Positions 9,838 to 48,532 of a stretch of DNA of 64,000 nt are shown piece by piece. Both the position numbers and the translations under genes were made by a program. The stretch covers positions 1-64,000 of the forward strand of contig NZ_JAGQBW010000016.1 in assembly GCF_024345835.1 (NCBI RefSeq), read 5' to 3'. Origin of the DNA: Synechococcus sp. HJ21-Hayes (GTDB lineage: Bacteria > Cyanobacteriota > Cyanobacteriia > PCC-6307 > Cyanobiaceae). Every line of letters begins with the position of its first letter. Position 1 is the stretch's first letter. Below the pieces are notes generated by a model that ran no database searches, was not told where the DNA came from, and worked only from the letters and a program-made list of their open reading frames with translations.

Positions 9838-11670
9838 TCAAGACTCCAGCCACAGGATGGCCGTCCTTGGGATCACCAGCTCGAGCTCGTTGGCCTGACC
9901 TTGTAGCTGTCGCCATTGCCAGGCTTGTAGTCCCACTTCAATAGCGAAGGCACTTGCGCCGATCTGTACATAGGTGCTGACCTGCAGGCCGCCATGGCTC
10001 ACATTGATCAGCCGGCAGGGATTCACGATCAGCTCGGGGCAAGCCTTCGTGCTGCCGATGGTGCAGAGACGTAGGTCATGGGCCTGCAGGCCAATCCAAT
10101 TCGGAGCGGCTGGGGACGACGGTTGTGCTGCCTTGATCACAAGGCCCCAGGTCTCAGCCAGGCACCGATCGGCGCTCAGCCAGTGGATTGGGCTGAGGTT
10201 CTTGCAGCCCATGAGCTTGGCCACAGCCAGCTGCCGGGGATGGGTAAACAGTTCCTGGGTTTCTCCCTGGCGGATGAGGCGTCCGCCATCGATCACCAGC
10301 AGTTCATCGCTCAGCCGGTGGGCTTCATCGATGTCGTGCGTGACCAACAGGATGGGGGTTCCAGTGCTGCGCTGCAGGCTGTCGACCAAGTGCTGCAATT
10401 GCTGCCGACGGAAACTGTCCTGGGAGTTGAGGGGCTCATCCAACAACAACAACTCGGGCTCGATTGCCAGGGCTCGTGCCAGGGCCACCCGCTGACACTG
10501 GCCTCCTGATAACTGATCTGGAAACAGCCGTGCCTGCCCCTCAAGTCCCACCGCTGCCAGCAGCATCGCCACCCGAGAATGTCGCTGTTCGCGGCTGAGC
10601 TGGCTCAGCCCAAACGCCACATTGGCGGCGACGCAGAGGTGGGGGAAGAGCGCATGTTGCTGAAACACCATGGCGATCCGCCGGTGCTGCGGTGCGACCC
10701 AGACCCCATGGTCGCTATCGCAGAGCAGCCGCTCACCCAGTTGGATGCGGCAGTGTTGCGGCCGCTCAAGCCCGGCGATGCAGCGCAGCAAGAGGGTCTT
10801 GCCGGCCCCAGACGGGCCCAGCACCGCCAACCGTGGCACCTGGCTGCTCCAGCGCACAGTCAGCTCAAAGCTTCCGCGGTGGAGCTGAATGGCCACCTGC
10901 AGAACGGCAGGGGCAGCGGGTTGGGGCGGCCTGAGCGGTTGCGCCGCCACACAGCTTTCCTCCTCCGGATGGATGGCCGAACGCCCGTGCACCACCCTGG
11001 GGGATCGGCGTCGGTTGAGGCCTTCGACCAAGACCAGGCAGCCACCGTTGAGCAGGAGAACCATGGCCGTGAGCCGCCAGGCCTCGGGTAGGGAGCCGTT
11101 TTCGACGGCGCTATAGATCGCGAGGGGCAGCGTCTGTGTACGGCCGGGGATGTTGCCCGCCAGCATCATGGTGGTGCCGAATTCTCCGAGCGCCCGGGCA
11201 ACGCTGAGGCTCAGACCGGCCCATAGGCCAGGGAGGATCAGTGGCAGGGTGACGCGCCGGAGCACCTGCACTGGACTGCAACCCAAGCCCAGGGCCACGG
11301 CCTCGAGGGCTGGGTCGAGTTGTTCGAGGGAGGCCAGGGTGCTGCGGTACATCAACGGGAATGCCACCACGGCAGCGCTGATCACCGTGGCGCCCCAGCT
11401 GAACACCACGGTGATGTCCATCGCCTGCAGGAGCTGCCCGATGGGCCCGTTGGGGCCCAGCAATTGCAGCAACACAAACCCCAATACCGTTGGCGGCAAC
11501 ACCAGCGGTGACAGCAGCAGCAGGTCGGCTAGGGCCCGCCGCCGGCCGTGCCAGCCCCTCACCAGTAGAGCAGCCCCGATTGCCGGAGGGCTCAGCAGGA
11601 GAACCGCCAGGGCTGCTGCTCGCAGCGAGAGCAGCAGCGGGGACCAGAGGGTGTCCACTGCAGGGGGCAT
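9838..11670 (-). CDS. modBC: Fused molybdate ABC transporter ModB-ModC (permease plus ATPase)
   Basis: One 610-residue polypeptide for molybdate uptake. Residues about 10-215 are the ModB permease with the EAA loop EAVALGLGCSPVQVLRRVTL (123-142). Residues about 255-460 are the ModC ATPase: Walker A GPSGAGKT (285-292), Q-loop VFQQHALFPHL, signature LSGGQCQ (387-393) and Walker B LLLLDEP (407-413). The C-terminal 90 residues are a TOBE-like molybdate-binding region. ModB-ModC fusions are known in cyanobacteria. The D-loop reads LNSQD instead of the usual LSALD. modA lies 9 bases upstream on the same strand. Confidence 0.95.
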   Translation of the reverse strand: MPPAVDTLWSPLLLSLRAAALAVLLLSPPAIGAALLVRGWHGRRRALADLLLLSPLVLPPTVLGFVLLQLLGPNGPIGQLLQAMDITVVFSWGATVISAAVVAFPLMYRSTLASLEQLDPALEAVALGLGCSPVQVLRRVTLPLILPGLWAGLSLSVARALGEFGTTMMLAGNIPGRTQTLPLAIYSAVENGSLPEAWRLTAMVLLLNGGCLVLVEGLNRRRSPRVVHGRSAIHPEEESCVAAQPLRPPQPAAPAVLQVAIQLHRGSFELTVRWSSQVPRLAVLGPSGAGKTLLLRCIAGLERPQHCRIQLGERLLCDSDHGVWVAPQHRRIAMVFQQHALFPHLCVAANVAFGLSQLSREQRHSRVAMLLAAVGLEGQARLFPDQLSGGQCQRVALARALAIEPELLLLDEPLNSQDSFRRQQLQHLVDSLQRSTGTPILLVTHDIDEAHRLSDELLVIDGGRLIRQGETQELFTHPRQLAVAKLMGCKNLSPIHWLSADRCLAETWGLVIKAAQPSSPAAPNWIGLQAHDLRLCTIGSTKACPELIVNPCRLINVSHGGLQVSTYVQIGASAFAIEVGLQAWQWRQLQGQANELELVIPRTAILWLES

Positions 11671-11679
11671 GGTGGTGGT

Positions 11680-12504
11680 TCAGCCCCCAGAGGGCAGCGG
11701 TGAAAAGCCGGCGCGCATGAAGGCATTGCGGGCCGCAGGGCTGCTTAACCCTTCGAGATAGACCTTGGCGGCCTTGGGCTGGCGACTGCGTTGGATGACC
11801 GCGCCGTAGTAAAGAATTGGCTGATGACTGGTGGCTGGCGCCGTAGCGGTGATGCGAAGGTTGGCCACGCCAACTACATCACTGCGATACACGAATCCCG
11901 CATCGACGCTGCCACTGGCGACCGCGGCAGCCACGGCGCGCACTGAGCCAAGAGGTACGAGCTTTGGTTGAAGTGTGGTGGTGAGTTTGTAGTACTGCAG
12001 AACCTGGCGGCCGTAATCACCCGCCGGGACCGCGTTGTCACCGATGGCGATGCGGCGAATCCGGGGGCTTGTGAGATCACGGAAGCCGAGCATGCCCCGC
12101 TGGCTGGTGGGCACCACCAGCACCAGTTGGTTGCTGATCAGTTTGCGGCGACTTCCCTTCAGCAGAAGCCCGGCCCGCTCAAGGGCATCCATCTGTTTGC
12201 TGCCGGCCGAGAGGAAGACATCCACTGGTGCCCCCTGCTCGATCTGGCGTTGGAGGATTCCGGAGGCTGACAGGTTGAACTGGGGAGCCGGACCCCGTTG
12301 CCTGCGGGAGAACGACGAGGCTAGGTCCTGCAGAACATTGGTGAGACTGACGGCAGCACTGACCAGTAGGGGTTGCGCAGTTGGGGGGAGCTGTGACAGT
12401 GCCCGGGGTGTGCTGACCAACAGCAACGGCACTCCTGCCAGTGTCAGCACCACGGCCAGGGTTGTGCGGTGGATGGTGTTCAGGGCCGTGGATCTGGGCA
12501 TCAC
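11680..12504 (-). CDS. modA: Molybdate-binding periplasmic protein ModA
   Basis: Captures molybdate in the periplasm for ModBC. 274 residues with an N-terminal hydrophobic export signal (about 15-37, TLAVVLTLAGVPLLLVSTPR, then RALSQ). The mature part has ModA landmarks LVSAAVSLTNVLQDLASSF, NLSASGILQRQIEQGAPVDV, FLSAGSKQMDALERAGLL, RRIAIGDNAVPAGDYGRQVL and VDAGFVYRSDV. The stop is 9 bases before the modBC start, so they form one operon; moaA is 33 bases upstream on the same strand. Confidence 0.95.
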   Translation of the reverse strand: MMPRSTALNTIHRTTLAVVLTLAGVPLLLVSTPRALSQLPPTAQPLLVSAAVSLTNVLQDLASSFSRRQRGPAPQFNLSASGILQRQIEQGAPVDVFLSAGSKQMDALERAGLLLKGSRRKLISNQLVLVVPTSQRGMLGFRDLTSPRIRRIAIGDNAVPAGDYGRQVLQYYKLTTTLQPKLVPLGSVRAVAAAVASGSVDAGFVYRSDVVGVANLRITATAPATSHQPILYYGAVIQRSRQPKAAKVYLEGLSSPAARNAFMRAGFSPLPSGG

Positions 12505-12537
12505 GGCAGGTTCCCAGGGCTGATGGTGGCAGGCAAG

Positions 12538-13548
12538 TTATCCCCCGAGATAAGCCATTTCGGCACGTGCCAAGACGGTTGAGGGAGCCCCAACGACGTT
12601 CCGTCTCTGGTCGCGCTCTTCGCTGTAGCGATCGTCCCGCCGACGCCAAAGGGTTGAAATCGTGTGCTCTAGCTCCGCGGGGTCCACGCCCTGGTGCAGC
12701 CACGGTTTGAGGTCTACTCCGCTCTCGGGTGCGGAAAACAGACAGGTGTAGGCCACGCCATCGGCGGTGACGCGTAGGCGGTTGCAGTCGCCGCAGAAGG
12801 GTTGGCTTACCGAGGCCACCACAGCCACGCAGCCGTTTCCATCGCGGTAGCGCCAGCGGTTGGCGGTGCCGTGTGGCTTGCGGCCGAGGTGCTCCAAGGG
12901 CCAGCGGGCATTGATCTGCTGCACCATCTCGGCGGCGCTCACCACATCGGCCGGGCTCCAACCGTTGCGGTTGCCCACATCCATGTATTCGATCAGCCTG
13001 AGTTCCAGGCCCTGGTTGCGGCAGAGCCCGGCCAACGGCACCACTTGATCGTTGTTGCGGCCGCGCTGGATCACGGCGTTGAGCTTCAGCTGTCCCGCTG
13101 CTGGATCGAAGCCGGCGGCGCGGGCGTGCTCGATCGCCTCAAGCACTGCAGTCAGAGCTCGCTTGCCGGCACGGGCATCCGCTAAGCCCGCCATGCGGGC
13201 CACACTGGCTCCATCCGCTCCATCGAGACTGAGCGTGATGCGATCCAGGCCGGCGGCGCGCAGGGCGTGGGCGCGGCTGGCGCTGAGCAGGGTGCCGTTG
13301 CTGGTGAGGGTGATCTCGCGTAGGCCCTGGGCGCGCAACGGCTGTACGGCGCTGATCAGCGCATCGAGCTGGCTGTGCAGCAGCGGTTCGCCGCCGGTCA
13401 GCCGCAGGCTCTGGGCCCCAAGAGCCACGGCCGCTTGGATCAGCTGCAACCGTTGCTCCAGGTTCAGCAGTCCCGGTGGCTCCTGGCCATCGGGCAGGCA
13501 GTAAGGGCAGGCCAGGTTGCAGCGGGCTGTGAGCGAGAGGCGCAGCAC
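12538..13548 (-). CDS. moaA: GTP 3',8-cyclase MoaA (radical SAM)
   Basis: First step of Moco synthesis. Cluster motif CNLACPYC (Cys10, 14, 17 from GTG 13548), LTGGEPLL, a second-cluster region FCGDCNRLRV with a later TCLF, and the terminal Gly-Gly (MAYLGG). The start is a problem. GTG 13548 gives VLRLSLTARCN and lacks the usual N-terminal strand, yet the codons upstream (DQLQRPLG before VLRLS) fit the family well. No ATG, GTG or TTG occurs between there and the in-frame mobA stop at 13638. A CTG at 13611 could be the true start. Confidence 0.93.
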   Translation of the reverse strand: MLRLSLTARCNLACPYCLPDGQEPPGLLNLEQRLQLIQAAVALGAQSLRLTGGEPLLHSQLDALISAVQPLRAQGLREITLTSNGTLLSASRAHALRAAGLDRITLSLDGADGASVARMAGLADARAGKRALTAVLEAIEHARAAGFDPAAGQLKLNAVIQRGRNNDQVVPLAGLCRNQGLELRLIEYMDVGNRNGWSPADVVSAAEMVQQINARWPLEHLGRKPHGTANRWRYRDGNGCVAVVASVSQPFCGDCNRLRVTADGVAYTCLFSAPESGVDLKPWLHQGVDPAELEHTISTLWRRRDDRYSEERDQRRNVVGAPSTVLARAEMAYLGG

Positions 13549-36844: not shown

Positions 36845-37162
36845 TCAGTCGAGCGGGCCGTTGATCAGGCCGTTGAAGCCGAACACGCGGCGGTCGCCGG
36901 CAAAGGGCACCAGCTGCACCTCGCGGCTGTCGCCGGGCTCGAAGCGGATCGCTGTGCCGGCGGGGATGTCGAGCCGCAGGCCACGGGCCGCCTCACGCTC
37001 AAACGCAAGGGCGCCGTTGGCCTCAAAAAAGTGGAAGTGGGAGCCCACTTGCACGGGCCGGTCGCCTGTGTTGGCCACCAGCAGGGTGGTGACGGGCCGG
37101 CCCGCGTTGAGCTCCAGCTCACCGGGTTCGGGCATCAGTTCACCGGGGATCAGAGGGGCCAT
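36845..37162 (-). CDS. ureB: Urease beta subunit
   Basis: 105 residues with the usual UreB sequence: [59 protein letters not shown] and [12 protein letters not shown]. It is a separate polypeptide, as in most bacteria (three-gene urease). It lies 16 bases downstream of ureA and 44 bases upstream of ureC. Confidence 0.98.
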
Positions 37163-37178
37163 GGCTTGGGTGTGGGGG

Positions 37179-37481
37179 TCAGCGGATCGGGTCGTGCAGG
37201 GTCACGAGCTTGGTGCCATCGGTGAACACCGCCTCGATCTGCACCTCCTGCACCAGCTCCGGCACCCCTTCCATCACTTGGGTGCGGTTGAGCCAGGTGG
37301 TGCCTTCGCTCATCAGCTCCGCCACGGTTTTGCCATCGCGGGCGCCTTCGATCACTAGGAAGCTCAGCCAGGCCACCGCCTCGGGGTGGTTGAGCTTGAT
37401 GCCGCGGTTGAGCCGCCGCTCCGCTAGCAGGGCGGCGGTGACGATCAACAGCTTGTCCTTTTCCTGAGGAGTCAGATGCAT
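37179..37481 (-). CDS. ureA: Urease gamma subunit
   Basis: 100 residues: [20 protein letters not shown], then [20 protein letters not shown], the patch [14 protein letters not shown], and VEIQ-like [20 protein letters not shown]. It is full length and starts the structural-gene block, 36 bases after the ureD stop. Confidence 0.98.
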
Positions 37482-37517
37482 GTCATGACTGTGGCAGGGC
37501 CCAGGGGTGCAGCCAGT

Positions 37518-38471
37518 TCACTGTGAACCGGCAGGGGTCGATGGCACAGCCATGGGTTGGCTGTCCTGCTGCTGCAGGGGTTGCTCCTGGAAGGGCCACA
37601 CCCGCGGCAGCTCCGGTGGGGGCAGGTGCCGCAGTCGACGGGTGTGGTGCCAGATCCGCGTGAACCAGTAGCGAGCCGCCTGGCTGGAAGGCCCCCGGTA
37701 GCGGGCCACCAGGCCCTGCTCGAGGGGGCCGCAGGCCATCTCCCCTTCCAAGCCGCTGCGCTCGGCGCGGCAGGCATCCAGGAGTGCCTCCAGCACCGGC
37801 CGATCCAGGGGCTGTGGCGCTGCCCACACCAGGGAGCCAAACACCGGTTGCCCGGCCAAGCCGTGGCGGCAGGCCAGTGCCTCACCGCCCAGCTCGAGCC
37901 GGTCCACCAGCTCCCAGCGGGGGCCCCCGGCGCCGTGGCGGCGGATCTCCAGCTGCGAGCGCCAGCGGCCCGCTGCGAGCTGTTCGCCGGCGGCGGTGCG
38001 GCCCAGGCGCACCACCTCAGCCCCCAGGAAGCTCGCCTCAGCCGCCAGCTCCACCCGGGCCCGCTGCTCATACAGGCCGCCGGCATAGAGCACCAGCTCC
38101 TGGGGGAGCCACTCCAGGTCGGCGCCGGCAGCCAGTTGGAAGTGGAGTGTTTGCCGCGCCCAGTGTCCGTCCGGCCTGCGGTGCAAGCGGCCCACGGAGC
38201 CATAGGCCTTCTGGGCCGCCACGCTGGTGAGCAGGGCCTGGCTGCCGGCGCCGAGATCGGCGCGCACCAGGAGTTGATCGCCTCCCACCAGCCCGCCGGC
38301 GGTGTGCAGCAGGGGCAATTCCGTGTGGCCACTGGGTTGCTGGAAGGCCCGCTGCAATTTCAGGGGTGAGCTGGCGCCGCCTTGGTGGACGGTGCGGCCG
38401 TTGCTGCGGCTGAAGTGCAGCCAGGCCTCCCCCCGCCAGGCGCTGCTGCTCGGTGTGTCGTGTGGGGCCAT
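37518..38471 (-). CDS. ureD: Urease accessory protein UreD
   Basis: Scaffold that binds the urease apoenzyme and, with UreF and UreG, helps carbamylate the active-site Lys and insert nickel. About 317 residues from ATG 38471 (MAPHDTPSSSAWRGEAWLHF). Landmarks are LPLLHTAGGLVGGDQLLVRA, LLTSVAAQKAYGS, LEWLPQELVLYAGGLYEQRA and TRIWHHTRRLRHL. GTG 38519 would leave no room for a promoter before ureE, so the later ATG is preferred. It heads ureDABC. Confidence 0.93.
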   Translation of the reverse strand: MAPHDTPSSSAWRGEAWLHFSRSNGRTVHQGGASSPLKLQRAFQQPSGHTELPLLHTAGGLVGGDQLLVRADLGAGSQALLTSVAAQKAYGSVGRLHRRPDGHWARQTLHFQLAAGADLEWLPQELVLYAGGLYEQRARVELAAEASFLGAEVVRLGRTAAGEQLAAGRWRSQLEIRRHGAGGPRWELVDRLELGGEALACRHGLAGQPVFGSLVWAAPQPLDRPVLEALLDACRAERSGLEGEMACGPLEQGLVARYRGPSSQAARYWFTRIWHHTRRLRHLPPPELPRVWPFQEQPLQQQDSQPMAVPSTPAGSQ

Positions 38472-38505
38472 GGGCGCATGCTCCGCTCCCCTGGGGCCGC
38501 TTCTC

Positions 38506-38519
38506 GTAGCCATAGGCAC
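38506..38519. promoter_or_regulatory. Weak NtcA-like box between divergent ureD and ureE
   Basis: GTAGCCATAGGCAC is a GTN10AC match with one perfect half-site. GATGGT (22 bases to the right) and GAGCAT (22 bases to the left on the minus strand) each match TAN3T but for one base, so either gene could be served. Resulting transcripts would start very close to the ATGs, which weakens the case. Confidence 0.3.
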
Positions 38520-38554
38520 ACTTCTAGGGCCCCTGGCCCGCGATGGTGCCGTTC

Positions 38555-39058
38555 ATGACTGTTGAGCCTGGCTCCCTCTCGTCAATCGTCCTGGTGGAAC
38601 GGCTGGCCCCAGGAGCCTTGCCGCCGGTGGATTGCCTGCGTTTGCCCCTCAGTGCCGATCAGCGCACTAGTAGCCGCGGCCATCGCCGCAGTGCCTGTGG
38701 CTGCGATCTGGTGCTGCAGCTACCCCGGGGCGCAGCCCTGGAGCCCGGGGAGGTGTTGCTGAGCCACGACGCCAGCGTGGCCGTGCGGGTGGAGGCGGCC
38801 CCGGAGGCCTTGCTCCGGGTGCGCAGTCCGGATCGTTTGGCCCTGCTGCAGGCCGCCTATCACCTGGGCAATCGCCATGTAGCCATGGAGCTCCACGCCG
38901 ACCAGCTGTTGTTGCTCCAAGACAGCGTGCTGGAAGACCTGCTGCGCCAACGGGGCCTCAGCGTGGAGCGGTTGCAGGCCCCCTTCCAGCCTGAGGCCGG
39001 CGCCTATGCGGGACCACCTGCCGGCCATGGCCAGCCTCACCACCACCACAGCCACTGA
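38555..39058 (+). CDS. ureE: Urease accessory protein UreE (nickel carrier)
   Basis: Delivers nickel to the UreG/UreF/UreD complex. About 167 residues from ATG 38555; ATG 38543 in the same frame is also possible. The C-terminal part has the UreE metal-binding segment YHLGNRHVAMELHADQLLLL and ends in a His-rich tail (HGQPHHHHSH), a nickel store. The N-terminal domain is Arg/Ser-rich in the middle (RTSSRGHRRSACGCDL). The last A of its stop is the first base of ureF (TGATG). Confidence 0.9.
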   Translation: MTVEPGSLSSIVLVERLAPGALPPVDCLRLPLSADQRTSSRGHRRSACGCDLVLQLPRGAALEPGEVLLSHDASVAVRVEAAPEALLRVRSPDRLALLQAAYHLGNRHVAMELHADQLLLLQDSVLEDLLRQRGLSVERLQAPFQPEAGAYAGPPAGHGQPHHHHSH

Positions 39059-39765
39059 TGTCCGTGATGTCCGGTGTTGGCTCTGGGGCGGCGGCAGCGC
39101 GCCTGCGCCTGTTTCAACTGGTGAGCCCGGCCCTGCCGGTGGGGGCCTTCAGCTATTCCGAGGGGCTGGAGGTGCTGGTGCAGGCGGGTCGCCTTACCGA
39201 TGCCGCCGGCCTGCACCAGTGGCTCACGGCGGAACTGCAGCGGGGGGCCATTGGGGTGGAAACGGCCTCGCTGGTGCCCCTGGTTGCGCTGCTTGCCCGT
39301 TGCTGTGATGGGGAGGCCCAGGCCATCGCCGCGGTGCTCGATCTCGATGGCTGGTTGTGTGCCCAGCGGGAAGCGGCGGAGGTGCGAGCCCAGCAGCGGC
39401 AGATGGGGCGATCGCTCATCCAGCTGCTGGGGGATCTGGGTTGGCCGTTGCCGGCGGCGTGCTCGGCTCTCAGCTGGCCGGCGGCCTTTGCCTGGGCGGC
39501 CCACTGCCTGGAGCTGCCATCCCCCGCTATCGAGGAGGCTTACCTCTACAGCTGGGTCGCCAATCAGATCAGCGCCGCGGTGCGGCTGGTGCCGTTGGGC
39601 CCCACCGAGGGCCAGCGGCTGCAGTTGCAGTTGGCTCCCTTGCTGGCGGAGCGGGCGGCGCTGCTGGCGGGGTGTGACCCCCAGGAGCTGTGGAGTGGGG
39701 GCGTTGGCGCCGGCCTGGCGCAGTTGCAGCACGCGGAGCTTTACACCCGTTTGTTCCGCAGCTGA
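39058..39765 (+). CDS. ureF: Urease accessory protein UreF
   Basis: Helical assembly factor that couples UreG GTP hydrolysis to nickel insertion. 235 residues with the conserved start LRLFQLVSPALPVGAFSYSE GLE, QMGRSLIQLLGDLG and YSWVANQISAAVRLVPLG. Start ATG 39058 shares a base with the ureE stop; ATG 39067 is an alternative. The usual partner ureG is not next: three ABC transporter genes lie between. Confidence 0.95.
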   Translation: MSVMSGVGSGAAAARLRLFQLVSPALPVGAFSYSEGLEVLVQAGRLTDAAGLHQWLTAELQRGAIGVETASLVPLVALLARCCDGEAQAIAAVLDLDGWLCAQREAAEVRAQQRQMGRSLIQLLGDLGWPLPAACSALSWPAAFAWAAHCLELPSPAIEEAYLYSWVANQISAAVRLVPLGPTEGQRLQLQLAPLLAERAALLAGCDPQELWSGGVGAGLAQLQHAELYTRLFRS

Positions 39766-39819
39766 CGATTGTTCCAGCCTGGCCTGATTCGGGCATGAAA
39801 ACCGCGGCACAATGCGGCC

Positions 39820-40704
39820 ATGCTTTCCATCTGGATCGGTGCCTGCGACCAAGGCCTGGCCTATGCCGGCCTTGCCCTGGGCGTGTACCTCACCCTGCGG
39901 GTTCTCAACTTCGCCGACATCACCGTGGACGGCTCCTTTGCCCTGGGCGGTGGCAGTGCGGCGCTGCTCCTGAGCGACCACGTGGCCCCGCCACTGGCGC
40001 TGCTGGTTCCCATGGCGCTGGGGGCCCTGGCCGGGGCCGTCACCGGCCTCATCCACACCCGGCTCGGGGTGAACGACCTCTTCGCCGGCATCCTCACCAC
40101 CACCGGCCTCTACTCGATCACCCTGCGGCTGATGGGCCGCTCCAACATTCCCCTCACCGATCTGCGGTTGACGATCGACAGCTGGCCCGACCTGGGGCTG
40201 GCTAGTGATGGCCGCTGGCTGCTGGCGCTGCTCCTGGTGGTGGCTGGCCTGATCGGCTTGCTCACCCTGTTGCTGGCCACCGACCTGGGCCTTGCCCTGC
40301 GGGCCCTGGGCAACAACCCGGTGATGGCCCGCTCCAATGGGGTGAGCACGCGCCGCGGTCTCACCCTCGGCATCGCCGCCGCCAATGCTCTGGTGGCCTT
40401 GGCCGGTGCCTTGGTGGCCACTTACCAGGGCTTTGCCGATGTGACCATGGGTCTTGGCTCGCTGATCCTCGGCCTGGGGGCCGTGATCGTGGGGGAATCG
40501 GTGCTGCGTCCTCGCAGCGTGCCGATGGCGCTGCTAGCGGTGGTCCTGGGCTCGGTGCTGTTCCGGGCCATGATCGCCCTGGCTCTACAGCTGGGCATGG
40601 ACCCTGTAGACCTCAAGCTGGCCACGGCCCTGCTGCTCCTCGCCGCCTTGGGGCTGGGCCGGCTACGCATCCCCGGGCTCTCCGATGCGGGAGGCCGCTC
40701 GTGA
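39820..40704 (+). CDS. ABC transporter permease (COG4120 type)
   Basis: 294 residues, about eight hydrophobic segments. The N-terminal LGVYLTLRVLNFADITVDGS and GNNPVMARSNGVSTRRGLTL with AANALVALAGALVATYQGFA and LGLGAVIVGESV place it with the TrpXYZ/ branched-chain-permease-like family. Start ATG 39820, 54 bases after the ureF stop and on the same strand; the ATPase gene overlaps its end (GTGA). Substrate unknown; members of this family elsewhere transport tryptophan or related compounds. Confidence 0.85.
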   Translation: MLSIWIGACDQGLAYAGLALGVYLTLRVLNFADITVDGSFALGGGSAALLLSDHVAPPLALLVPMALGALAGAVTGLIHTRLGVNDLFAGILTTTGLYSITLRLMGRSNIPLTDLRLTIDSWPDLGLASDGRWLLALLLVVAGLIGLLTLLLATDLGLALRALGNNPVMARSNGVSTRRGLTLGIAAANALVALAGALVATYQGFADVTMGLGSLILGLGAVIVGESVLRPRSVPMALLAVVLGSVLFRAMIALALQLGMDPVDLKLATALLLLAALGLGRLRIPGLSDAGGRS

Positions 40705-41504
40705 GCCTGCAGGTTCAACGGTTGCGCTGGGGCCATGCCCAGCCTGGGGGTGGCTGGCGCCAGCTCTTTGACAATTTTGAATTCAGCTGTCCCACCGGTC
40801 AGTTTGTTGTCGTGATCGGCAGCAACGGCTCCGGTAAGTCGACATTGCTCAACCTCGTGGCGGGCACCCTGCAGGCCGATACCGGCTCCGTGCAGCTCGA
40901 GGGGCGTGAGTTGGTGGGGATGCCTGATCATCGCCGCGCCCGCCGGATCGGGCGGGTGATGCAGAACCCCCTGGATGGCACCGCTCCGGGGCTCACGATT
41001 GCTGAAAACCTTCGCCTGGCCGAGTGCCGCCGCCGCTCGCTGTTGTCCCTGCGGGGGCTGGCCGGACTCCATCCCAGTCGCTCGGATCGGCGTCGTTATG
41101 CCGAGCTGTTGGAGGAGCTGGGTCTGCCCCTGGCCGATCGGGTGGACACCCCTGTGGGGCAGCTCTCCGGCGGCCAGCGCCAGACCATCAGCCTGGTGAT
41201 GGCCACCCTCGGCCAACCGCGGTTGCTGCTGCTGGATGAGCACACGGCAGCCCTCGATCCGCGGGCGGAAGCCACGGTGATGGAGCTCACCGATCGCTTG
41301 GTGGCCCGGCTGGGAACCACCACCTTGATGGTGACCCACAGCCTCGAGCAGGCCCTTCGCCACGGCGATCGGCTGGTGATGCTTCAGGCCGGTCAGTTGA
41401 TCGGCGATTGGAACGCGGAGGAGCGGCAACAGTTCACCCCAGCCACGTTGCGGGCCCTCTACGGTTCCGTCACAGTTGGCACCCACAGTTCCGAGTCCCC
41501 ATGA
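40701..41504 (+). CDS. ABC transporter ATPase (COG1101 type)
   Basis: 267 residues with Walker A GSNGSGKS, signature LSGGQRQTISLVMATL, Walker B LLLLDEHTAALDP and H-loop MVTHSLEQAL. The segment DHRRARRIGRVMQNPLDGTA is characteristic of this group, where the usual Walker B-following Pro is His (DEH). It starts at GTG 40701 inside the permease end and its own stop overlaps the binding-protein start (ATGA). Confidence 0.88.
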   Translation: MSLQVQRLRWGHAQPGGGWRQLFDNFEFSCPTGQFVVVIGSNGSGKSTLLNLVAGTLQADTGSVQLEGRELVGMPDHRRARRIGRVMQNPLDGTAPGLTIAENLRLAECRRRSLLSLRGLAGLHPSRSDRRRYAELLEELGLPLADRVDTPVGQLSGGQRQTISLVMATLGQPRLLLLDEHTAALDPRAEATVMELTDRLVARLGTTTLMVTHSLEQALRHGDRLVMLQAGQLIGDWNAEERQQFTPATLRALYGSVTVGTHSSESP

Positions 41505-42514
41505 CCCTTGGGCGGCGTGAGTTCATCGCTTTGATGACAGCTGGCGGGGGTAGCTCTCTCGTTTTGGCGGCCTGCGGCAAGCTCGGTGGCCGGACGGAGC
41601 GCAAGGGGCCATTGATCGGCCTCCTCCAGATGGTGGATGCACCCCCACCGAATCTCACCCGTGAGGGTTTTGAGGCGGCCCTCGCCGATGCGGGCTACCG
41701 CGACGGCAGCACCGTCACCTTCATGCAGAAGGATGCCGCGGGTGAGTTGCCCAACACCACCCTGGTGATGAAGCAGTTCCTCGGCGACCAGGTGGACATG
41801 GTGCTGGCGGTGGGCACGCCGCCGCTGCAGGCCGCCATGAAGGTGTTGCCCGAGTCGGTGCCGGTGATCTTCTGCTACTGCTCCAATCCCTGGGGTGCCG
41901 GTGCTGGTACCCCGCCCGGGGGCGTGGGTCAACACCGCCCCAACGTGGTGGGAACAATCGGCACCAACCCCGTGGGCCGCGAGCTCGACCTGGCCCGGCA
42001 GGTGAATCCCGCCTTGAAGACGGTGGGCCTCATCTACAACCCTGGCGAGCCCAACTCCGAATACGAGGCCGGCATTCTCCAGAAGGAAGCGGATCAGCGC
42101 GGCATCCAGCTCGAAAAGCAGGCGGTGGCCAATTCCGGTGAGGTGTTGCAGGCCGCTCAGGCCCTGGCACAACAGAAGGTGGAGGCCTTCGTGAAGATCG
42201 GTGATTACGCCACCATTCAGGCCTTCAACTCCATCTGCAAGGTGGGGCTCGAGAACAAGATTCCGGTGTACTCCGTGGATCCGCCCGATATTGAGCTGGC
42301 CGGTTGCCTGGGGGTGATCGGATGGAACTATCGCGATGATGGCTATGCCGCGGGCAAGTTGGCCGTGCGGGTGCTCAAGGGTGAGTCGCCGGCGACTATG
42401 CCCTTCGAGCCCCTCACCAAGACCGATCTGCTGGTGAGCCAGGCCACCGCCAAGGCCATCGGGGTGACGCTGCCCCAGGACCTGCTCAAGCAGGCCAACA
42501 AGGTGGTGAGCTGA
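41501..42514 (+). CDS. ABC transporter substrate-binding lipoprotein (COG2984 type)
   Basis: About 337 residues from ATG 41501. The N terminus [20 protein letters not shown] followed by VLAAC carries a twin-arginine-like motif and a lipobox with Cys25. The mature part has the COG2984 pattern: [60 protein letters not shown] and [20 protein letters not shown]. It is translationally coupled to the ATPase (ATGA), and ureG follows after five bases. Ligand not predictable from sequence. Confidence 0.88.
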
Positions 42515-42519
42515 ACGGG

Positions 42520-43125
42520 ATGGGCGGCAGTCGTCTGCGCGTTGGTGTGGCCGGCCCGGTGGGCTCCGGCAAGACCGCCCTGGTGGAGGCTCTCTGCCGC
42601 CGCCTGCGGCAGCGGCTGCAGCTGGCGGTGGTGACCAACGACATCTACACCCAGGAGGATGCCCAGTTCCTCACCCGCGCCGGTGCCCTGGAGCCGGAGC
42701 GCATTCGCGGTGTGGAAACCGGTGGGTGCCCCCATACGGCCATCCGCGAGGACTGCTCGATCAACCGGGCGGCAGTGGAGGACCTGGAGCAGGCCTTCCC
42801 CGGACTCGACCTGGTGCTGGTGGAGAGCGGCGGCGACAACCTGGCGGCCAGCTTCAGCCCGGAGCTGGTGGATCTCTGCATCTATGTGATTGATGTGGCC
42901 GCCGGTGACAAGATTCCCCGTAAGGGCGGGCCTGGTATCACCCGTTCCGACCTGCTGGTGATCAACAAGATCGACCTGGCTCCGATGGTGGGCGCCAGCC
43001 TGGAGGTGATGCAGGGGGATACCGAGCGCATGCGCCCCGGACGCCCCTGGTGCTTCACCAACCTGCACACGGGCGAGGGACTGGATGCCGTGGAGGCCTT
43101 TTTGCTGCAACAGCTGCCGACCTAG
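42520..43125 (+). CDS. ureG: Urease accessory GTPase UreG
   Basis: SIMIBI-class GTPase that delivers nickel during urease maturation. 201 residues: P-loop GPVGSGKT (12-19), the switch/metal segment [14 protein letters not shown] and the nickel-binding CPH motif in [20 protein letters not shown], then [19 protein letters not shown] and INKIDLAP. It starts five bases after the ABC binding-protein stop, so it must be co-transcribed with that transporter. urtA lies 184 bases downstream. Confidence 0.97.
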
Positions 43126-43218
43126 TTGGCATTCGGTAGCGGCGCGCACAGCGGGCGAGGTCGAATCGGATTCGCAAGATTTTTTGGGGAGGCGCCTTTT
43201 TCTTGGGTTCCTCAAACT

Positions 43219-43261
43219 GTTCGTTTCGCTACCAAGTGGCGCCTGGGTGGCTCGATACGGT
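43219..43261 (+). promoter_or_regulatory. NtcA-type promoter of urtABCDE
   Basis: GTTCGTTTCGCTAC (43219-43232) matches GTAN8TAC at five of six positions, and TACGGT (43256-43261) is a perfect TAN3T after 23 bases. This is the standard class II NtcA layout and the best such match in the window. The start site would be near 43268, about 42 bases before the urtA ATG. Another GTN10AC at 43136 (GTAGCGGCGCGCAC) lacks a good -10. Confidence 0.6.
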
Positions 43262-43309
43262 CCGGCTTACCGCTGTTCGGCGGGTGCTCATTTCGTGCTT
43301 TTAGAACCC

Positions 43310-44602
43310 ATGACGTCTCCCTCGATGCGGAAGACCTCGCTGCGGCTGCTGGGCGGGGCTACCGCTCTGGCTACCTCCCTGTCCCTCGTTGCCTGTGGCG
43401 GCGGCGACAAGGCATCAGGAGATTTTGATGGCGAAGTGAAGGTGGGCATCCTTCACTCCCGCTCCGGCACCATGGCCATCTCCGAGAACACGGTGGCCGA
43501 AGCCGAGCTGATGGCCATCGATGAGATCAACGCCAAAGGTGGCGTGAAAATCGACGGCAAGAAGCTGAAGATTGTTCCCGTTGAGGAAGACGGTGCTTCC
43601 GATTGGCCCACCTTTGCTGAAAAGGCCAAGAAACTGATCGATCAGGATCAGGTGGCTGTGGTGTTCGGCGGTTGGACCTCCGCCAGCCGCAAGGCCATGC
43701 TGCCCGTGTTCGAAGCCAAGGATCACTTCCTCTTCTACCCGATTCAATACGAAGGGCAGGAGTGCTCCAAGAACATCTTCTACAGCGGTGCTGCCCCCAA
43801 TCAGCAGGCTGAGCCTGCCGTGGACTGGCTGCTGAAGAACAAGGGCAAGGACTTCTTCCTGGTGGGTTCGGACTACGTGTATCCGCGTACCGCCAACACC
43901 ATCATGAAGGAGCAGCTCAAGGCTTCTGGTGGCAAGGTGGTGGGTGAGGACTACCTGCCCCTCGGTAACACCGAAGTGGCTCCGATCATCGCCAAGATCA
44001 AGCAGGCCCTGCCCAAGGGCGGTGTGATCGTGAACACCCTCAACGGCGATAGCAACGTTGCCTTCTTCAAGCAGATGAAGGCCGCCGGCATCACCCCGGC
44101 TAACGGCTACTCGATCATGAGCTTCTCGATCGCCGAAGAGGAGATCGCCGCCATTGGTCCTGAGTACCTCGAGGGCACCTACGCCGCCTGGAACTACTTC
44201 CAGAGCCTCGACACCCCGGCTTCCAAGAAGTTCACCGCAGACTTCAAGGCCAAGTACGGCGACAAGCGGGTCACCAATGACCCCGCCGAAGCCGCTTACA
44301 TGATGGTGTACCTGTGGGCCGCTGCTGCCGAGAAGGCCAACAGCGTGGACGACAACAAGGTGCGCGAGGCCCTGATCGGCGTGAGCTTCGATGCTCCCGA
44401 AGGCAAGGTGACCGTGCAGCCCAACCACCACGTTGAGAAGCTCGTGCTGATCGGTGAGGTGCAGAAGGACGGCATGTTCAAGATCCTCGAGAACAAGGGC
44501 TTCGTGAAGCCCGTGGCCTGGAACCAGTACGTGCCCGAGACCAAGGGCTACACCTGCGACTGGACCCAGAACCGTCCTGACGCCGGCAAGTACAAGATGT
44601 GA
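43310..44602 (+). CDS. urtA: Urea-binding lipoprotein UrtA
   Basis: Periplasmic urea receptor. 430 residues from ATG 43310 (MTSPSMRKTS). Signal peptide with a lipobox (LSLVAC, Cys29). Landmarks of UrtA/FmdD are VKVGILHSRSGTMAISENTV, VVFGGWTSASRKAMLPVFEA, LFYPIQYEGQECSKNIFYSG, GSDYVYPRTANTIMKEQLKA and VVGEDYLPLGNTEV. Codon use is strongly biased, as expected for a highly expressed gene. The open frame upstream of 43310 is ureG tail and leader. A terminator-like element follows it. Confidence 0.98.
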   Translation: MTSPSMRKTSLRLLGGATALATSLSLVACGGGDKASGDFDGEVKVGILHSRSGTMAISENTVAEAELMAIDEINAKGGVKIDGKKLKIVPVEEDGASDWPTFAEKAKKLIDQDQVAVVFGGWTSASRKAMLPVFEAKDHFLFYPIQYEGQECSKNIFYSGAAPNQQAEPAVDWLLKNKGKDFFLVGSDYVYPRTANTIMKEQLKASGGKVVGEDYLPLGNTEVAPIIAKIKQALPKGGVIVNTLNGDSNVAFFKQMKAAGITPANGYSIMSFSIAEEEIAAIGPEYLEGTYAAWNYFQSLDTPASKKFTADFKAKYGDKRVTNDPAEAAYMMVYLWAAAAEKANSVDDNKVREALIGVSFDAPEGKVTVQPNHHVEKLVLIGEVQKDGMFKILENKGFVKPVAWNQYVPETKGYTCDWTQNRPDAGKYKM

Positions 44603-44612
44603 TCCGGCAGGG

Positions 44613-44683
44613 GCCGGCATTGGGCCGGCTCCATCTCACACCATTGCAGGATTGCTGGGGGGAGAGAAATCTCCCCTCTTTTT
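44613..44683 (+). terminator. Two hairpins, the second a Rho-independent-type terminator, between urtA and urtB
   Basis: GCCGGC pairs with GCCGGC (44613-44618 and 44624-44629, loop ATTGG). Further on GGGGAGA-GAAA-TCTCCCC (44659-44676) is followed by TCTTTTTG. The second is a classic intrinsic terminator, yet urtBCDE follow on the same strand with no obvious promoter of their own, so it probably ends only part of the transcripts and keeps urtA expression above the rest. Confidence 0.8.
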
Positions 44684-44736
44684 GTTCCTGTTGTTTGATC
44701 TTTTTCTTCCTCTTTGCCTGATCCCTGCGGGTCGCG

Positions 44737-45894
44737 ATGGATCTTCTCTACGACACACTGTTCAACGGCCTGGCCATCGGTTCGGTTCTGGTGCTCGCGG
44801 CACTGGGGCTGGCTGTGGTGTTTGGTCTGATGGGTGTCATCAACATGGCCCATGGTGAGTTGATGATGCTCGGCGCCTACACCACCTTTGTGGTGCAGAA
44901 CATTTTCAAGGCTGTGCTGCCGGAAGCTCTGTTCCCGGTGTACATCCTGGTGGCCATTCCCCTGGCCTTCGCCGTGAGTGGCCTCGTGGGCCTGCTGCTC
45001 GAGAAAACCGTGATTCGGCGGCTCTATGGCCGCCCCCTGGAAACCCTGCTGGCGACCTGGGGTGTGAGCCTGATCCTGCAGCAGTTTGTGCGCTCGGTCT
45101 CCAGTGCTTTCGCCATTGGTCTGGTGCTGGCGGTGGTGAGCGGTTTGCTGGTGCCCCGCCTCACCCCGAAGCCGTGGTGGCAGCAGCGCTGGACGCCGCT
45201 GCTGGGCACGGGCAGTTGGATCGTGAGCGGCGTGATCGGCATCGTGGTGGCCTCGCTGTTGGGTGGTCAGCGGGTGTTGGATCAGCCCTGGTTCAGTGCG
45301 CGCAACATCGACGTGACGGCCCCGGTGTGGCTGCGGGGATCCATTGATGTGGGTGCGGTGAACATGCCCGCGGCGCGCCTGTTCATCATTGCGCTCACCG
45401 TGGTGGCGCTCGTGGCCGTGGGCTGGTTCCTGCAAAAGAGTGTCTGGGGGATGCGCATCCGTGCTGTGACCCAGAACCGGCCCATGAGTGATTGCCTTGG
45501 CATTCCCACGGAGAAGGTGGATGCGCTCACCTTCCTGATCGGTTCGGGCCTGGCTGGTGTGGCCGGTGTGGCCGTGACCCTGCTCGGTTCGGTGGGTCCG
45601 AACCTGGGGGGGAATTACATCGTGGATTGCTTCATGGTGGTGGTGCTGGGCGGCGTGGGCAAACTCGCCGGTACCGTGCTGGCGGCCCTGGGTATCGGCG
45701 TGCTCAGCTACATCGTGGGTTCCGGCTCCCTGTTGCTGGTGTGGCCGGCCATGCCGGCTGGTTTGAATGAACTGATCACCTTCTTCGCCACAACCTCGAT
45801 GGCGAAGGTGCTGGTGTTCGCTGTGATTGTGGTGTTTCTGCAGATCAGGCCGGCCGGTCTGTTCCCGCAGAAGGGCCGCATGGTGGAGGCCTGA
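44737..45894 (+). CDS. urtB: Urea ABC transporter permease UrtB
   Basis: 385 residues, LivH-like, with about nine to ten hydrophobic helices. The N-terminal DTLFNGLAIGSVLVLAALGL plus VVFGLMGVINMAHGELMMLG is the family signature, as are GRPLETLLATWGVSLILQQF, NRPMSDCLGIPTEKVDALTF and VVLGGVGKLAGTVLAALGIG. Start ATG 44737, 134 bases after urtA; urtC follows with 3 bases between. Confidence 0.97.
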   Translation: MDLLYDTLFNGLAIGSVLVLAALGLAVVFGLMGVINMAHGELMMLGAYTTFVVQNIFKAVLPEALFPVYILVAIPLAFAVSGLVGLLLEKTVIRRLYGRPLETLLATWGVSLILQQFVRSVSSAFAIGLVLAVVSGLLVPRLTPKPWWQQRWTPLLGTGSWIVSGVIGIVVASLLGGQRVLDQPWFSARNIDVTAPVWLRGSIDVGAVNMPAARLFIIALTVVALVAVGWFLQKSVWGMRIRAVTQNRPMSDCLGIPTEKVDALTFLIGSGLAGVAGVAVTLLGSVGPNLGGNYIVDCFMVVVLGGVGKLAGTVLAALGIGVLSYIVGSGSLLLVWPAMPAGLNELITFFATTSMAKVLVFAVIVVFLQIRPAGLFPQKGRMVEA

Positions 45895-45897
45895 GCC

Positions 45898-47055
45898 ATG
45901 GCCGATCTGCTCTCTTCCCGCAACCTGCGGCGCGCCCTGCCCTGGGTGGTGATCGTGGTGGTGGCCCTGGTGCTGCCGGCGGTGTTGCCGCCCTTTCGCC
46001 TGAATTTGCTGGGTCGTTTCCTGTCGTTGGGCATCGTGGCCCTCGGCATCGACTTGATCTGGGGCTACACCGGCATGCTCAGCCTCGGCCAGGGCATCTT
46101 TTTCGCCCTGGGTGCCTATGCCCTGGGGATGTATCTGCAGCTGAGCTCCCTGGAGCCAGGCCAGTTGCCGGAGTTCTTCTCGCTCTATGGGGTGAAGAGC
46201 TTGCCGGCGTTCTGGCAGCCCTTCACATCGCCGCTGTTCACTGGCTTTGCCATCTGGGTGATTCCAGCCCTGGTGGCTGGCGTGCTCGGCTATCTGGTGT
46301 TTCGCAACCGCATCAAGGGGGTTTACTTCTCGATCCTCACCCAGGCGGCCCTGCTGGTGTTTTTCAACTTCTTCAACGGCCAGCAGAAGTTGATCAACGG
46401 CACCAACGGCCTCAAGACCGATACCGCCCGCCTCTTCGGTGAGCTGGTGGGCAGTGATGCCATGCAGCGTCATCTGTTCTGGCTCACGGTGGTCTTTGTG
46501 ATCGCGGCTTGGTTCCTCTGTCGTTGGCTCACGCGCGGTCGTTTTGGTGATGCACTGGTGGCCATTCGCGACGACGAGCCGCGGCTGCGCTTCACCGGTT
46601 ACAACCCCACGGCCTACAAGACGGTGGTGTTCGCCGTTGCCGGTGCTTTGGCCGGCATCAGCGGCGCCCTCTACACCGTGCAGTCCGGCATTGTGTCGCC
46701 CCAATACATGGCGGTACCCTTCTCGATCGAGATGGTGATCTGGGTGGCGGTGGGTGGCCGCGGCACCCTGATCGGGGCGGTGCTCGGAGCTGTTGTGATC
46801 AACTACGCCAAGTCCCTGGTGAGCGAACAGCTGCCGGAAACCTGGTTGTTCATCCAGGGTGGTCTGTTCCTGCTGGTGGTCACGGCCTTGCCCGATGGCC
46901 TGGTGGGTTGGTGGCGCCAGGGTGGCCCCGGGCGTCTGATCGCCATGGTGGGCTGGCCGCCCAAGGCCGCCACCTATCCGTCGCTGGATCTCGATCCCGA
47001 GGTGCAGGCGGAGCACAGCGATTTCGACACCACACCCCGCGGTGGTGCCTCATGA
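45898..47055 (+). CDS. urtC: Urea ABC transporter permease UrtC
   Basis: 385 residues, LivM-like second permease. Landmarks are LSLGIVALGIDLIWGYTGML, SLGQGIFFALGAYALGMYLQ, GNRIKG-like FRNRIKGVYFSILTQAALLV and IRDDEPRLRFTGYNPTAYK, then VAVGGRGTLIGAVLGAVVIN. The last bases overlap urtD (ATGA). Long hydrophilic tail (about residues 345-385) faces the cytoplasm. Confidence 0.97.
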   Translation: MADLLSSRNLRRALPWVVIVVVALVLPAVLPPFRLNLLGRFLSLGIVALGIDLIWGYTGMLSLGQGIFFALGAYALGMYLQLSSLEPGQLPEFFSLYGVKSLPAFWQPFTSPLFTGFAIWVIPALVAGVLGYLVFRNRIKGVYFSILTQAALLVFFNFFNGQQKLINGTNGLKTDTARLFGELVGSDAMQRHLFWLTVVFVIAAWFLCRWLTRGRFGDALVAIRDDEPRLRFTGYNPTAYKTVVFAVAGALAGISGALYTVQSGIVSPQYMAVPFSIEMVIWVAVGGRGTLIGAVLGAVVINYAKSLVSEQLPETWLFIQGGLFLLVVTALPDGLVGWWRQGGPGRLIAMVGWPPKAATYPSLDLDPEVQAEHSDFDTTPRGGAS

Positions 47056-47822
47056 CGACAGCCCAACCAGCGATGAATCTGCTTGAACTGCGGGGGGTCA
47101 CCGTCAGCTTTGACGGCTTCCTCGCTCTCAACGACCTCAACCTGCAGCTGGCCCCCGGCGAGCTGCGCGCGGTGATTGGTCCCAATGGCGCCGGCAAGAC
47201 CACCTTCCTCGATGTGATCACCGGCAAGGTGCGTCCCACCAAGGGCGATGTGCTGTTCCGCGGAGCCTCCCTCGTGGGCCAGAGCGAGCACCGCATCTCG
47301 CGGCTCGGCATCGGCCGCAAGTTCCAGACCCCCAGGGTGTACCAGAACCTCACCCCCCGCCGGAATCTGGAGCTGGCGGTGCGTGGTCCCCATGGACCGG
47401 CAGCTCTGCTGTTTGGTTCCCTCAGTTCCGATCAACGCGACCGCGTGCAGCACCTGCTCGGGGTGGTGGGTCTGGAGAGCCATGCCAACCAGCTGGCCGG
47501 AGGGTTGTCCCACGGCCAGAAGCAGTGGCTCGAGATCGCCATGCTCGTGGCCCAGGATCCTGAACTGCTGCTGGTGGATGAACCGGTGGCGGGTCTCACC
47601 GACGAGGAAACGGCCCGCACAGGGGAGTTGTTGTGCCAACTGGCCGGTGATCACACGGTGCTGGTGATCGAACACGACATGGACTTCATTCGCGATTTGC
47701 AGTCGCCCGTGACGGTGTTGCATGAGGGCCACGTGCTCTGCGAGGGCTCGATGGATCAGGTGCAGAGCGATCCGCGGGTGATCGAGGTGTATCTCGGCAG
47801 CGAAACCCAGGAGGCCGCATGA
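47052..47822 (+). CDS. urtD: Urea ABC transporter ATPase UrtD
   Basis: 256 residues from ATG 47052 (MTTAQPAMNLLELRGVTVSF). Walker A GPNGAGKT, signature LSHGQKQWLEIAMLV, Walker B LLLVDEPVAGLTDEE; LivG-like. The signature is LSHGQ rather than LSGGQ, which is normal for LivG/UrtD. The upstream frame to 46908 is urtC in another phase. It overlaps urtC and urtE by ATGA. Confidence 0.97.
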   Translation: MTTAQPAMNLLELRGVTVSFDGFLALNDLNLQLAPGELRAVIGPNGAGKTTFLDVITGKVRPTKGDVLFRGASLVGQSEHRISRLGIGRKFQTPRVYQNLTPRRNLELAVRGPHGPAALLFGSLSSDQRDRVQHLLGVVGLESHANQLAGGLSHGQKQWLEIAMLVAQDPELLLVDEPVAGLTDEETARTGELLCQLAGDHTVLVIEHDMDFIRDLQSPVTVLHEGHVLCEGSMDQVQSDPRVIEVYLGSETQEAA

Positions 47823-48532
47823 CCAGCAACCTGCTTGAAGTGCGTGGGCTGAACGTCTTTTACGGCGAGAGTCACATCCTGCGCGACGTTGACATGAGCG
47901 TGCGGCCTGGCCAGATGGTGTGCCTGATCGGGCGCAATGGCGTGGGTAAGACCACCCTGCTCAAGACCGTGATCGGGTTGTTGCGGCAGCGCACTGGATC
48001 GGTGCAGCTGCAGGATCGGGAGTTGTCTGCCATGGCACCGCACCAGCGGGCCCGGGGTGGCATCGGCTATGTGCCCCAGGGGCGGGAGATCATCCCCCAG
48101 CTCACGGTGCGCGAGAACCTGATGCTGGGCATGGAGGCCCTGCCCGGTGGCTTGGCCAGGAATCGCCACATCGACCCGGTGGTGTTCGAGCTCTTCCCCA
48201 TCCTGGAGAAGTTCCTCAATCGCCGGGGCGGCGACCTTTCGGGTGGTCAGCAGCAGCAATTAGCCATTGCTCGGGCCCTCTTGGGCAAGCCCAAGTTGCT
48301 GCTCCTGGATGAACCCACGGAGGGCATTCAGCCCTCCGTGGTGCTCGACATTGAGCGGGCGGTGCGCCGCATCATCGAGACCACCGGCATCAGCGTGTTG
48401 CTGGTGGAGCAACACCTGCATTTCGTGCGCCAGGCCGACTGGTACTACGCGATGCAGAAGGGTGGCGTGGTGGCCAGTGGCCCCACCGGAGAGCTCAGCA
48501 AGGACGTGGTGGATCGTTTCCTCAGCGTTTGA
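47819..48532 (+). CDS. urtE: Urea ABC transporter ATPase UrtE
   Basis: 237 residues, LivF-like. Walker A GRNGVGKT, YVPQGREIIPQLTVRENLML, signature LSGGQQQQLAIARALL and Walker B LLLLDEPTEGIQPSVV. It ends the urt operon and is closed by a strong hairpin before the convergent pabC. Confidence 0.97.
   Translation: MTSNLLEVRGLNVFYGESHILRDVDMSVRPGQMVCLIGRNGVGKTTLLKTVIGLLRQRTGSVQLQDRELSAMAPHQRARGGIGYVPQGREIIPQLTVRENLMLGMEALPGGLARNRHIDPVVFELFPILEKFLNRRGGDLSGGQQQQLAIARALLGKPKLLLLDEPTEGIQPSVVLDIERAVRRIIETTGISVLLVEQHLHFVRQADWYYAMQKGGVVASGPTGELSKDVVDRFLSV

Follow-up and report, generated by a model that had tools for sequence, protein, structure and literature searches.

A candidate retargeted TrpXYZ-type ABC importer between ureF and ureG in Synechococcus sp. 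HJ21-Hayes and related picocyanobacteria

The window analyzed here is a stretch of 64,000 nucleotides from Synechococcus sp. HJ21-Hayes (contig NZ_JAGQBW010000016.1, positions 1 to 64,000 of the forward strand). Between its urease genes ureF and ureG lie three genes of an ATP-binding cassette (ABC) transporter, encoding a permease, an ATPase and a substrate-binding protein (SBP). We favor, as the probable explanation, an autonomous importer of the TrpXYZ type whose SBP has been retargeted from aromatic amino acids and which has long resided in the urease locus. The insertion is not a recent accident, and the system is not explained by the canonical tryptophan importer.

Anatomy of the importer and the ligand pocket of its binding protein

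The genes of the locus, all on the forward strand, were called from open reading frames (ORFs) and from Pfam and NCBIfam profile matches. The permease (39820..40704, 294 amino acids; BPD_transp_2, Pfam 74.2 bits), the ATPase (40701..41504, 267 amino acids; ABC_tran, Pfam 104.8 bits) and the SBP (41501..42514, 337 amino acids; PF04392, ABC_sub_bind, 164.8 bits) overlap through GTGA at 40701-40704 and ATGA at 41501-41504, and five bases separate the SBP stop from ureG. The SBP carries a twin-arginine translocation (Tat) and lipobox N terminus; the Tat-type RR and lipobox cysteine are present in 24 of 25 aligned SBP rows, the exception being a row without an N terminus (the SBP2 row of genome G339, SBP2 being the second SBP described below). 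A preliminary description, made from the letters of the window, had reported this three-gene insertion with its overlaps and spacing, and our analysis confirms it. Two accompanying claims also held: ureF and ureG are normally contiguous, their matches lying 39-67 bases apart in five genomes of the genus that lack the insertion, and urtABCDE is present as well, the three-gene importer being distinct from it. The same description had singled out the DEH that follows Walker B in the ATPase (41235..41243). This DEH is indeed present, but all 35 of the Cyanobiaceae ATPases examined, counting that of the window, have it, as do all 5 distant plasmid-borne relatives (from Variovorax, Ilyobacter, Salinivibrio, Rhizobium and Phyllobacterium); it therefore marks the ATPase family, and we rejected it as an anomaly of this locus.

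An AlphaFold2 model of the SBP made with 25 family rows (pLDDT 90) had as its best PDB matches 3lft, 3lkv and 6hni (TM 0.83-0.95, best chain of each); against 3lft, Foldseek gave a TM of 0.83/0.94 at 27% identity. The solved relatives found by sequence are exclusively Trp-, Tyr- or Phe-binding proteins (TrpX, CD0873 and VC_1101). According to the available part of one study, these ligands are bound in the solved relatives with their amino and acid groups held in a shared manner (PMC6816091), and the available part of another names the TrpX residues A127, T108, T129, D152 and N233 (PMC9382623). We mapped these residue numbers onto 3lft from residue spacing. In all 25 Cyanobiaceae proteins, A127 is replaced by Tyr or Phe, D152 by Gly, Thr or Ser, and N233 by Tyr; TDP is replaced by NP, where TrpX-type proteins carry (T/S)DP, and Trp stands at two further columns. 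The T129 column holds Ser, or Ala in two proteins. The alignment also delimits a motif of the altered pocket, NPWGAGAG (SBP residues 129-136, 41885..41908), in which N129, P130, W131, A133, G134, A135 and G136 are invariant across the 25 rows. A127, D152 and N233 are kept in 3 of 3 solved proteins, in 6 of 6 plasmid-borne SBPs (five loci) and in the proteins of genomes G551 and G597; two distant proteins of G412 keep N233 and have lost D152, one of them also having A127 changed.

Because all 25 members have replaced the amino-acid-holding residues, the solute is probably not a plain amino acid. As judged from sequence columns and the predicted fold, the Cyanobiaceae SBP branch most likely binds something other than aromatic amino acids, and we infer that its solute may be a small organic compound, perhaps nitrogen-bearing or cationic. 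With several Tyr and Trp residues plus conserved Asp and His, the pocket could hold a planar or cationic compound, which we offer as a guess.

In its PF04392 fold and three-gene importer type the system is like Streptococcus TrpXYZ (SP1069, PDB 3lft; S. suis TrpX, as described in the available part of PMC9382623), and like TrpXYZ importers it has a BPD_transp_2 permease and a DEH-type ATPase adjacent to the SBP. Unlike streptococcal TrpXYZ, A127, D152 and N233 are replaced, the gene order is permease-ATPase-SBP, and the SBP scores far below the cut-off of the TrpX model (151.4 bits against 390), which is its sole NCBIfam match at E <= 0.001. No T-box was found either, as Rfam returned no match at gathering score in 37000-44000. 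CD0873 (a tyrosine-binding lipoprotein, PDB 6hni; available part of PMC6816091) and VC_1101 (phenylalanine-bound, 3lkv) share the fold and the Tyr at the specificity position of importer-type copies; unlike them, the Cyanobiaceae SBPs have lost the amino-acid-holding Asp and Asn and carry Trp in SNPW and GW motifs.

Distribution, placement and independence from urease

The position of the importer was surveyed across genomes, many of them fragmentary and incomplete. Group names are inferred: g1 is the Vulcanococcus group (the genus of the window, whose SBP is 98% identical to that of the nearest named contig), g6 the Cyanobium group and g44 the Synechococcus lacustris group. Among 25 genomes of the Vulcanococcus group, 18 carry a PF04392 protein, 18 have UreG above 390 bits and 14 have both. 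The SBP stands beside ureG in 13 of these 14. The gap between the matches is at most 20 bases in 10 of them and widens to 63 bases in G004, to 0.57 kb in G020 and to 1.56 kb in G022. Only the complete genome G014 departs from this: there, SBP and ureG are far apart and the SBP clusters in the tree with stand-alone copies, not with the other genus copies; this unlinked copy (L093) has a TAA within the ATPase match 6632-7420 and may thus be decaying. Four genomes have ureG without the SBP (G003, G008, G018, G023), four the SBP without ureG (G006, G007, G011, G021) and three neither (G010, G013, G015), with G010 holding ureF-permease-ATPase up to a contig end. The full series ureF-permease-ATPase-SBP-ureG lies on one contig in nine genomes, two of which (G020 and G022) carry additional bases ahead of ureG; in G005 the permease and the urease-locus SBP are on different contigs, and three genomes have the SBP alone at the ureF/ureG junction.

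In the family as a whole, an SBP match occurs in 70 of 400 Cyanobiaceae genomes and a UreG match in 298 of them. Three of the 70 (the g18 genomes G041, G117 and G171) are C-terminal (3') scars directly before ureG, and one (G109) is truncated where its contig stops. Of the other 66, 34 have SBP or SBP2 within 2 kb of ureG, as counted from coordinates (13 g1, 4 g44, 2 g47 and 15 g6), and the place is conserved in 4 of 4 g44 genomes. A phylum-wide sample gave matches in 14 of 386 genomes, 11 of them in Cyanobiaceae. A scan for the motifs NPWGAGAG and H[RK][PA]NV[VT]GT[IV] in what the tool describes as 84,980 species genomes returned 60 loci, in picocyanobacterial, Aphanothece or other cyanobacterial records, with one Microcystis elabens title and one Bifidobacterium breve bin among them. 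The latter (L177, CALPNT020000026.1), a metagenome bin, carries a cyanobacterial SBP, and its title looks wrong. Viral copies were looked for and none was confirmed. A PF04392 protein of G551 (L219, 7077-8075), about 3 kb from ureC (10882-12600), was considered as a second case and rejected; we treat it as chance because it keeps the canonical amino-acid residues and no permease or ATPase match occurs in that stretch. The preliminary description had allowed that the insertion might turn out to be a recent random rearrangement; its persistence beside ureG in the genus and in g44, together with the scars in g18, speaks for conservation instead.

The importer also occurs without urease. Twelve genomes have the SBP and no UreG (4 g1, 7 g45 and G372), and the permease was present in 7 of 7 searched for it (G006, G007, G011, G021, G103, G162, G176). 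In g45, 7 of the 14 SBP-bearing genomes lack a UreG match (E <= 1e-40), and three of these seven, each about 99% complete, carry the permease. G011, which is 93% complete, has SBP and permease while UreC and UreG are both absent; G006, G011 and G021 are without UreC and without a true UreG match, and G007 has a piece of UreC. As a stand-alone three-gene module, away from urease genes, the importer is found in four genera (g6, g30, g45 and g47). It does not, then, occur only or nearly only with urease, in the manner of a urease accessory gene. The suggestion in the preliminary description that the system might import a cofactor for urease maturation is not supported, given its retention in those seven g45 genomes and in G006 and G007, where ureD, ureE, ureF and ureG are missing from this place; on present evidence from gene content, the importer is not a urease maturation gene.

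A candidate promoter of its own precedes the module. In the window, a -10-like box (GCACAATGCG, 39807..39816) contains CACAATG ending 5 nt before the permease ATG. This conserved box emerged from comparison of the loci alone, with cut or broken permease copies and L141 excluded from the count. In 25 of 33 loci, both inside and outside the urease locus, the exact CACAATG falls in the 40 nt before the permease ATG, and in 22 of 33 it has the window's spacing, against an expectation of about 0.0016 per locus. Such spacing is what a -10 element would have if transcription began at the ATG itself, which would give a leaderless mRNA. The window contains no NtcA sites (exact GTAN8TAC). The proposal that ureG is on the same transcript as the importer is plausible from the five-base spacing, but it is weakened by the promoter-like box in many copies, and further by the two opposite-strand genes that stand between SBP and ureG in Cyanobium and g47.

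Arrangements of the locus and copies without a permease

Five arrangements were distinguished. The Vulcanococcus group has ureF-permease-ATPase-SBP-ureG; g44 shares its SBP-ureG side, with ureF non-adjacent in the stretches seen. In G002 (on one contig), G016 and G017 the order is ureF-SBP-ureG, and neither the permease nor the ATPase has an orthologue elsewhere in the genome. A third arrangement has permease-ATPase-SBP away from urease, opposite an ABC exporter (PF00664 plus ABC_tran), and accounts for 18 of the 19 stretches of g6, g30, g45 and g47 that were examined, with two broken copies and no urease gene match there; no ABC exporter was found in the remaining stretch, L109 (G127). In the fourth (g6 and g47), ureF is followed by SBP2, a second, divergent SBP of 39-50% identity, then by convergent genes for an MlaD-domain and an MlaE-like protein, and then by ureG; it was mapped in all 15 g6 cases, with only the MlaD-domain match in G294, where the SBP2 match changes frame and was counted as broken. 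The fifth, in G006 and G007, places permease-ATPase-SBP directly after ureA, together with SBP2 and the MlaD/MlaE-like pair and with no ureD, ureE, ureF or ureG match there. In G006 it is spread over two contigs and its ureA match is broken; the deletion of ureD, ureE, ureF and ureG appears real in both genomes, as they share the ureA-permease junction and the stretch is without N. On one parsimonious history, the ureF/ureG junction would have held a larger set of genes in an ancestor, parts of which were then lost in different ways.

The convergent MlaD-domain and MlaE-like pair, without an ATPase match, was observed at the ureF/ureG junction of Cyanobium, g47 and some Vulcanococcus-group genomes, either between SBP or SBP2 and ureG or after SBP2 (L126, L116, L117, L092, L099, L229-L236). 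G020 keeps mere fragments of it, and the name MlaE reached the Pfam cut-off in 1 of 4 proteins checked. The 1.5-1.6 kb between SBP2 and ureG had been considered as a rearranged permease and ATPase; this was rejected, as the interval holds the MlaD-domain and MlaE-like genes on the other strand. In G167 (L129, 6424-7769) and G339 (L134, 5312-6599), the stand-alone permease and SBP are broken and SBP2 is kept at the urease locus.

Fifteen genomes (3 of the Vulcanococcus group and 12 of the Cyanobium group) have an SBP between ureF and ureG and no permease orthologue that we could find, at E <= 1e-20 with confirmation by PF02653 for G002, G016 and G017, and at E <= 1e-10, in a search of the permease alone, for the 12 Cyanobium genomes. 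Fourteen of the 15 copies are intact, retain the motifs of the altered pocket and are under purifying though looser selection. In a tree of 56 SBPs, the three solo SBPs of the genus form one clade nested among its permease-bearing copies, which points to a probable single loss of permease and ATPase there, with the SBP kept. Pairwise omega is 0.12-0.16 among these three, against 0.01-0.02 for UreG of the same genomes. Between solo and permease-bearing SBPs it is 0.20-0.31, exceeding the 0.08-0.19 among five permease-bearing copies, which means that constraint loosened toward the solo SBPs. In g6, the 15 genomes with a urease-locus SBP2 comprise 12 with no permease match, two with a broken or partial one (G167 and G339) and one with it intact (G213). 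Of the 12 SBP2 copies in permease-less genomes, 11 are intact with the NPW motif preserved; the omega of these 11, 0.13-0.41 over 55 pairs (median 0.32), points to purifying but fairly loose selection. Five SBP2 copies of another set, two from genomes with a permease match, gave 0.18-0.29. We did not read the origin of SBP2 from the tree because of the long branches around it. All 15 permease-less genomes carry ureG, and the permease was present in all 7 of the 12 SBP-bearing genomes without ureG that were searched for it, a pattern that is only suggestive given the few independent losses.

As for the neighboring genes in the window, ureE (38543..39058; an ORF above the NCBIfam UreE cut-off) and ureF (39058..39765; an ORF with PF01730 at 120 bits and no NCBIfam match) precede the module, and ureG (42520..43125; TIGR00101, 325 bits) and the urtABCDE urea importer (43310..48532) follow it. 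UreA, UreB, UreC, UreE, UreG and UrtA to UrtE of the window all pass NCBIfam cut-offs. In several lineages (L087, L100-L102, L126-L135) urtABCDE is far more divergent than the adjacent ureG: identity to the window is 70-72% for UrtA and 55-64% for UrtB, compared with about 90-93% for UreG, as if a conserved ureG had stayed in place while the urea importer next to it was exchanged.

Weighing the explanations

Under the explanation that we favor, the SBP would have been retargeted in Cyanobiaceae to another small solute within an aromatic-rich pocket. By analogy with its family, solute caught in the periplasm by the Tat-exported lipoprotein would cross inward through the permease, powered by the ATPase. 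The module would have settled for the long term in the urease locus, lying between ureF and ureG in Vulcanococcus-group genomes and next to ureG in those of the Synechococcus lacustris group, working independently of urease, with a promoter-like box of its own in most copies; read-through from it may help to express ureG. Several observations weigh against this account. The exact box is missing from 8 of the 33 loci (four have a variant and four none), three of the boxless ones being genus copies inside the urease locus, and a sigma-70 consensus scan of 38300-43500 returned 0 promoter-like sites. The case for an altered pocket comes from sequence columns and a predicted fold, and D152 alone is not decisive, since the two G412 proteins lack it as well. 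TrpX T108 is kept, as are a small residue at T129 and, in importer-type copies, the Tyr of the Gln/Tyr specificity site, which may leave the pocket some aromatic-ligand character. Finally, the 15 permease-less genomes are left unaccounted for.

A different account, which we regard as possible if doubtful, is that the ureF/ureG junction is a permissive landing site that tolerates insertions, the importer being a passenger unrelated to urease or urea. The varied sets held by the junction (permease-ATPase-SBP, SBP alone, and SBP2 with the convergent MlaD/MlaE-like pair) are in keeping with this, as are the occurrence of the importer elsewhere in four genera and without ureG, the promoter-like box of many copies and the looser selection on permease-less than on permease-bearing copies. 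However, the SBP stays at the junction when the permease is gone, and in g44 it stays directly beside ureG despite the changed ureF side, both of which suggest some benefit of place. Such persistence could also mean that the SBP is the conserved unit, acting as a second receptor that brings a new solute to UrtBCDE or as a periplasmic sensor of the locus, which we consider rather unlikely. The BPD_transp_2 permeases found in G002, G016 and G017 comprise UrtB, UrtC and a further adjacent pair, which makes UrtBC a positional candidate partner, and urtABCDE of the window a candidate as well. The importer is like UrtABCDE in having a BPD_transp_2 permease in the same locus; unlike it, its SBP belongs to another family and is not of UrtA type, UrtA being a separate gene, and Urt has two permease genes and is present alongside, not replaced. 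The available part of one study reports orphan urtA genes in some marine Synechococcus that may use other ABC machinery (PMC8786288). They are a partial precedent for a binding protein kept without its own permease, but they lie near phage-associated genes, whereas the SBP here is of another family and inside the urease locus.

That this is a conventional aromatic amino acid importer of the TrpXYZ kind, placed in the urease locus by chance, seems to us improbable. The solved relatives by sequence and the top structural matches do bind Trp, Tyr or Phe (available part of PMC6816091), and of the five plasmid-borne relatives two belong to clusters of tyrosine/homogentisate genes (Variovorax) or of kynA/kynU (Phyllobacterium), a setting that fits an aromatic amino acid importer; the remaining three are in no such setting. 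Set against this are the TrpX score far below its NCBIfam cut-off, the loss of D152 and N233 in 25 of 25 proteins, and the missing Rfam match, hence no T-box, in 37000-44000; freshwater picocyanobacteria are also described, in the available part of PMC11851481, as without a complete degradation pathway for Trp, Tyr or Phe. An importer of nickel or another cofactor supporting urease maturation is very improbable: its position among ureE, ureF and ureG is all that speaks for it, while it is kept in genomes without ureG and where ureD, ureE, ureF and ureG are gone, its nearest solved relatives bind amino acids and not metals, and it is missing from most ureG-bearing Cyanobiaceae (SBP 70/400, UreG 298/400).

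Among titles and abstract openings of the literature on the importer and on its urease or picocyanobacterial setting, we found no report of this insertion. According to a survey that covered the urea genes of 308 cyanobacterial genomes, ureE, ureF and ureG often lie contiguously, and Cyanobium is not named in the available part of its main text (PMC6737895). Novel transporters have been suggested to remain undiscovered in freshwater picocyanobacteria (available part of PMC11851481), and for the organic compounds that these organisms take up, the importer is a candidate with a pocket unlike that of its solved relatives. If it is true that the permease-less copies feed the urea transporter, adding a receptor would be a simple way to widen that transporter's diet.

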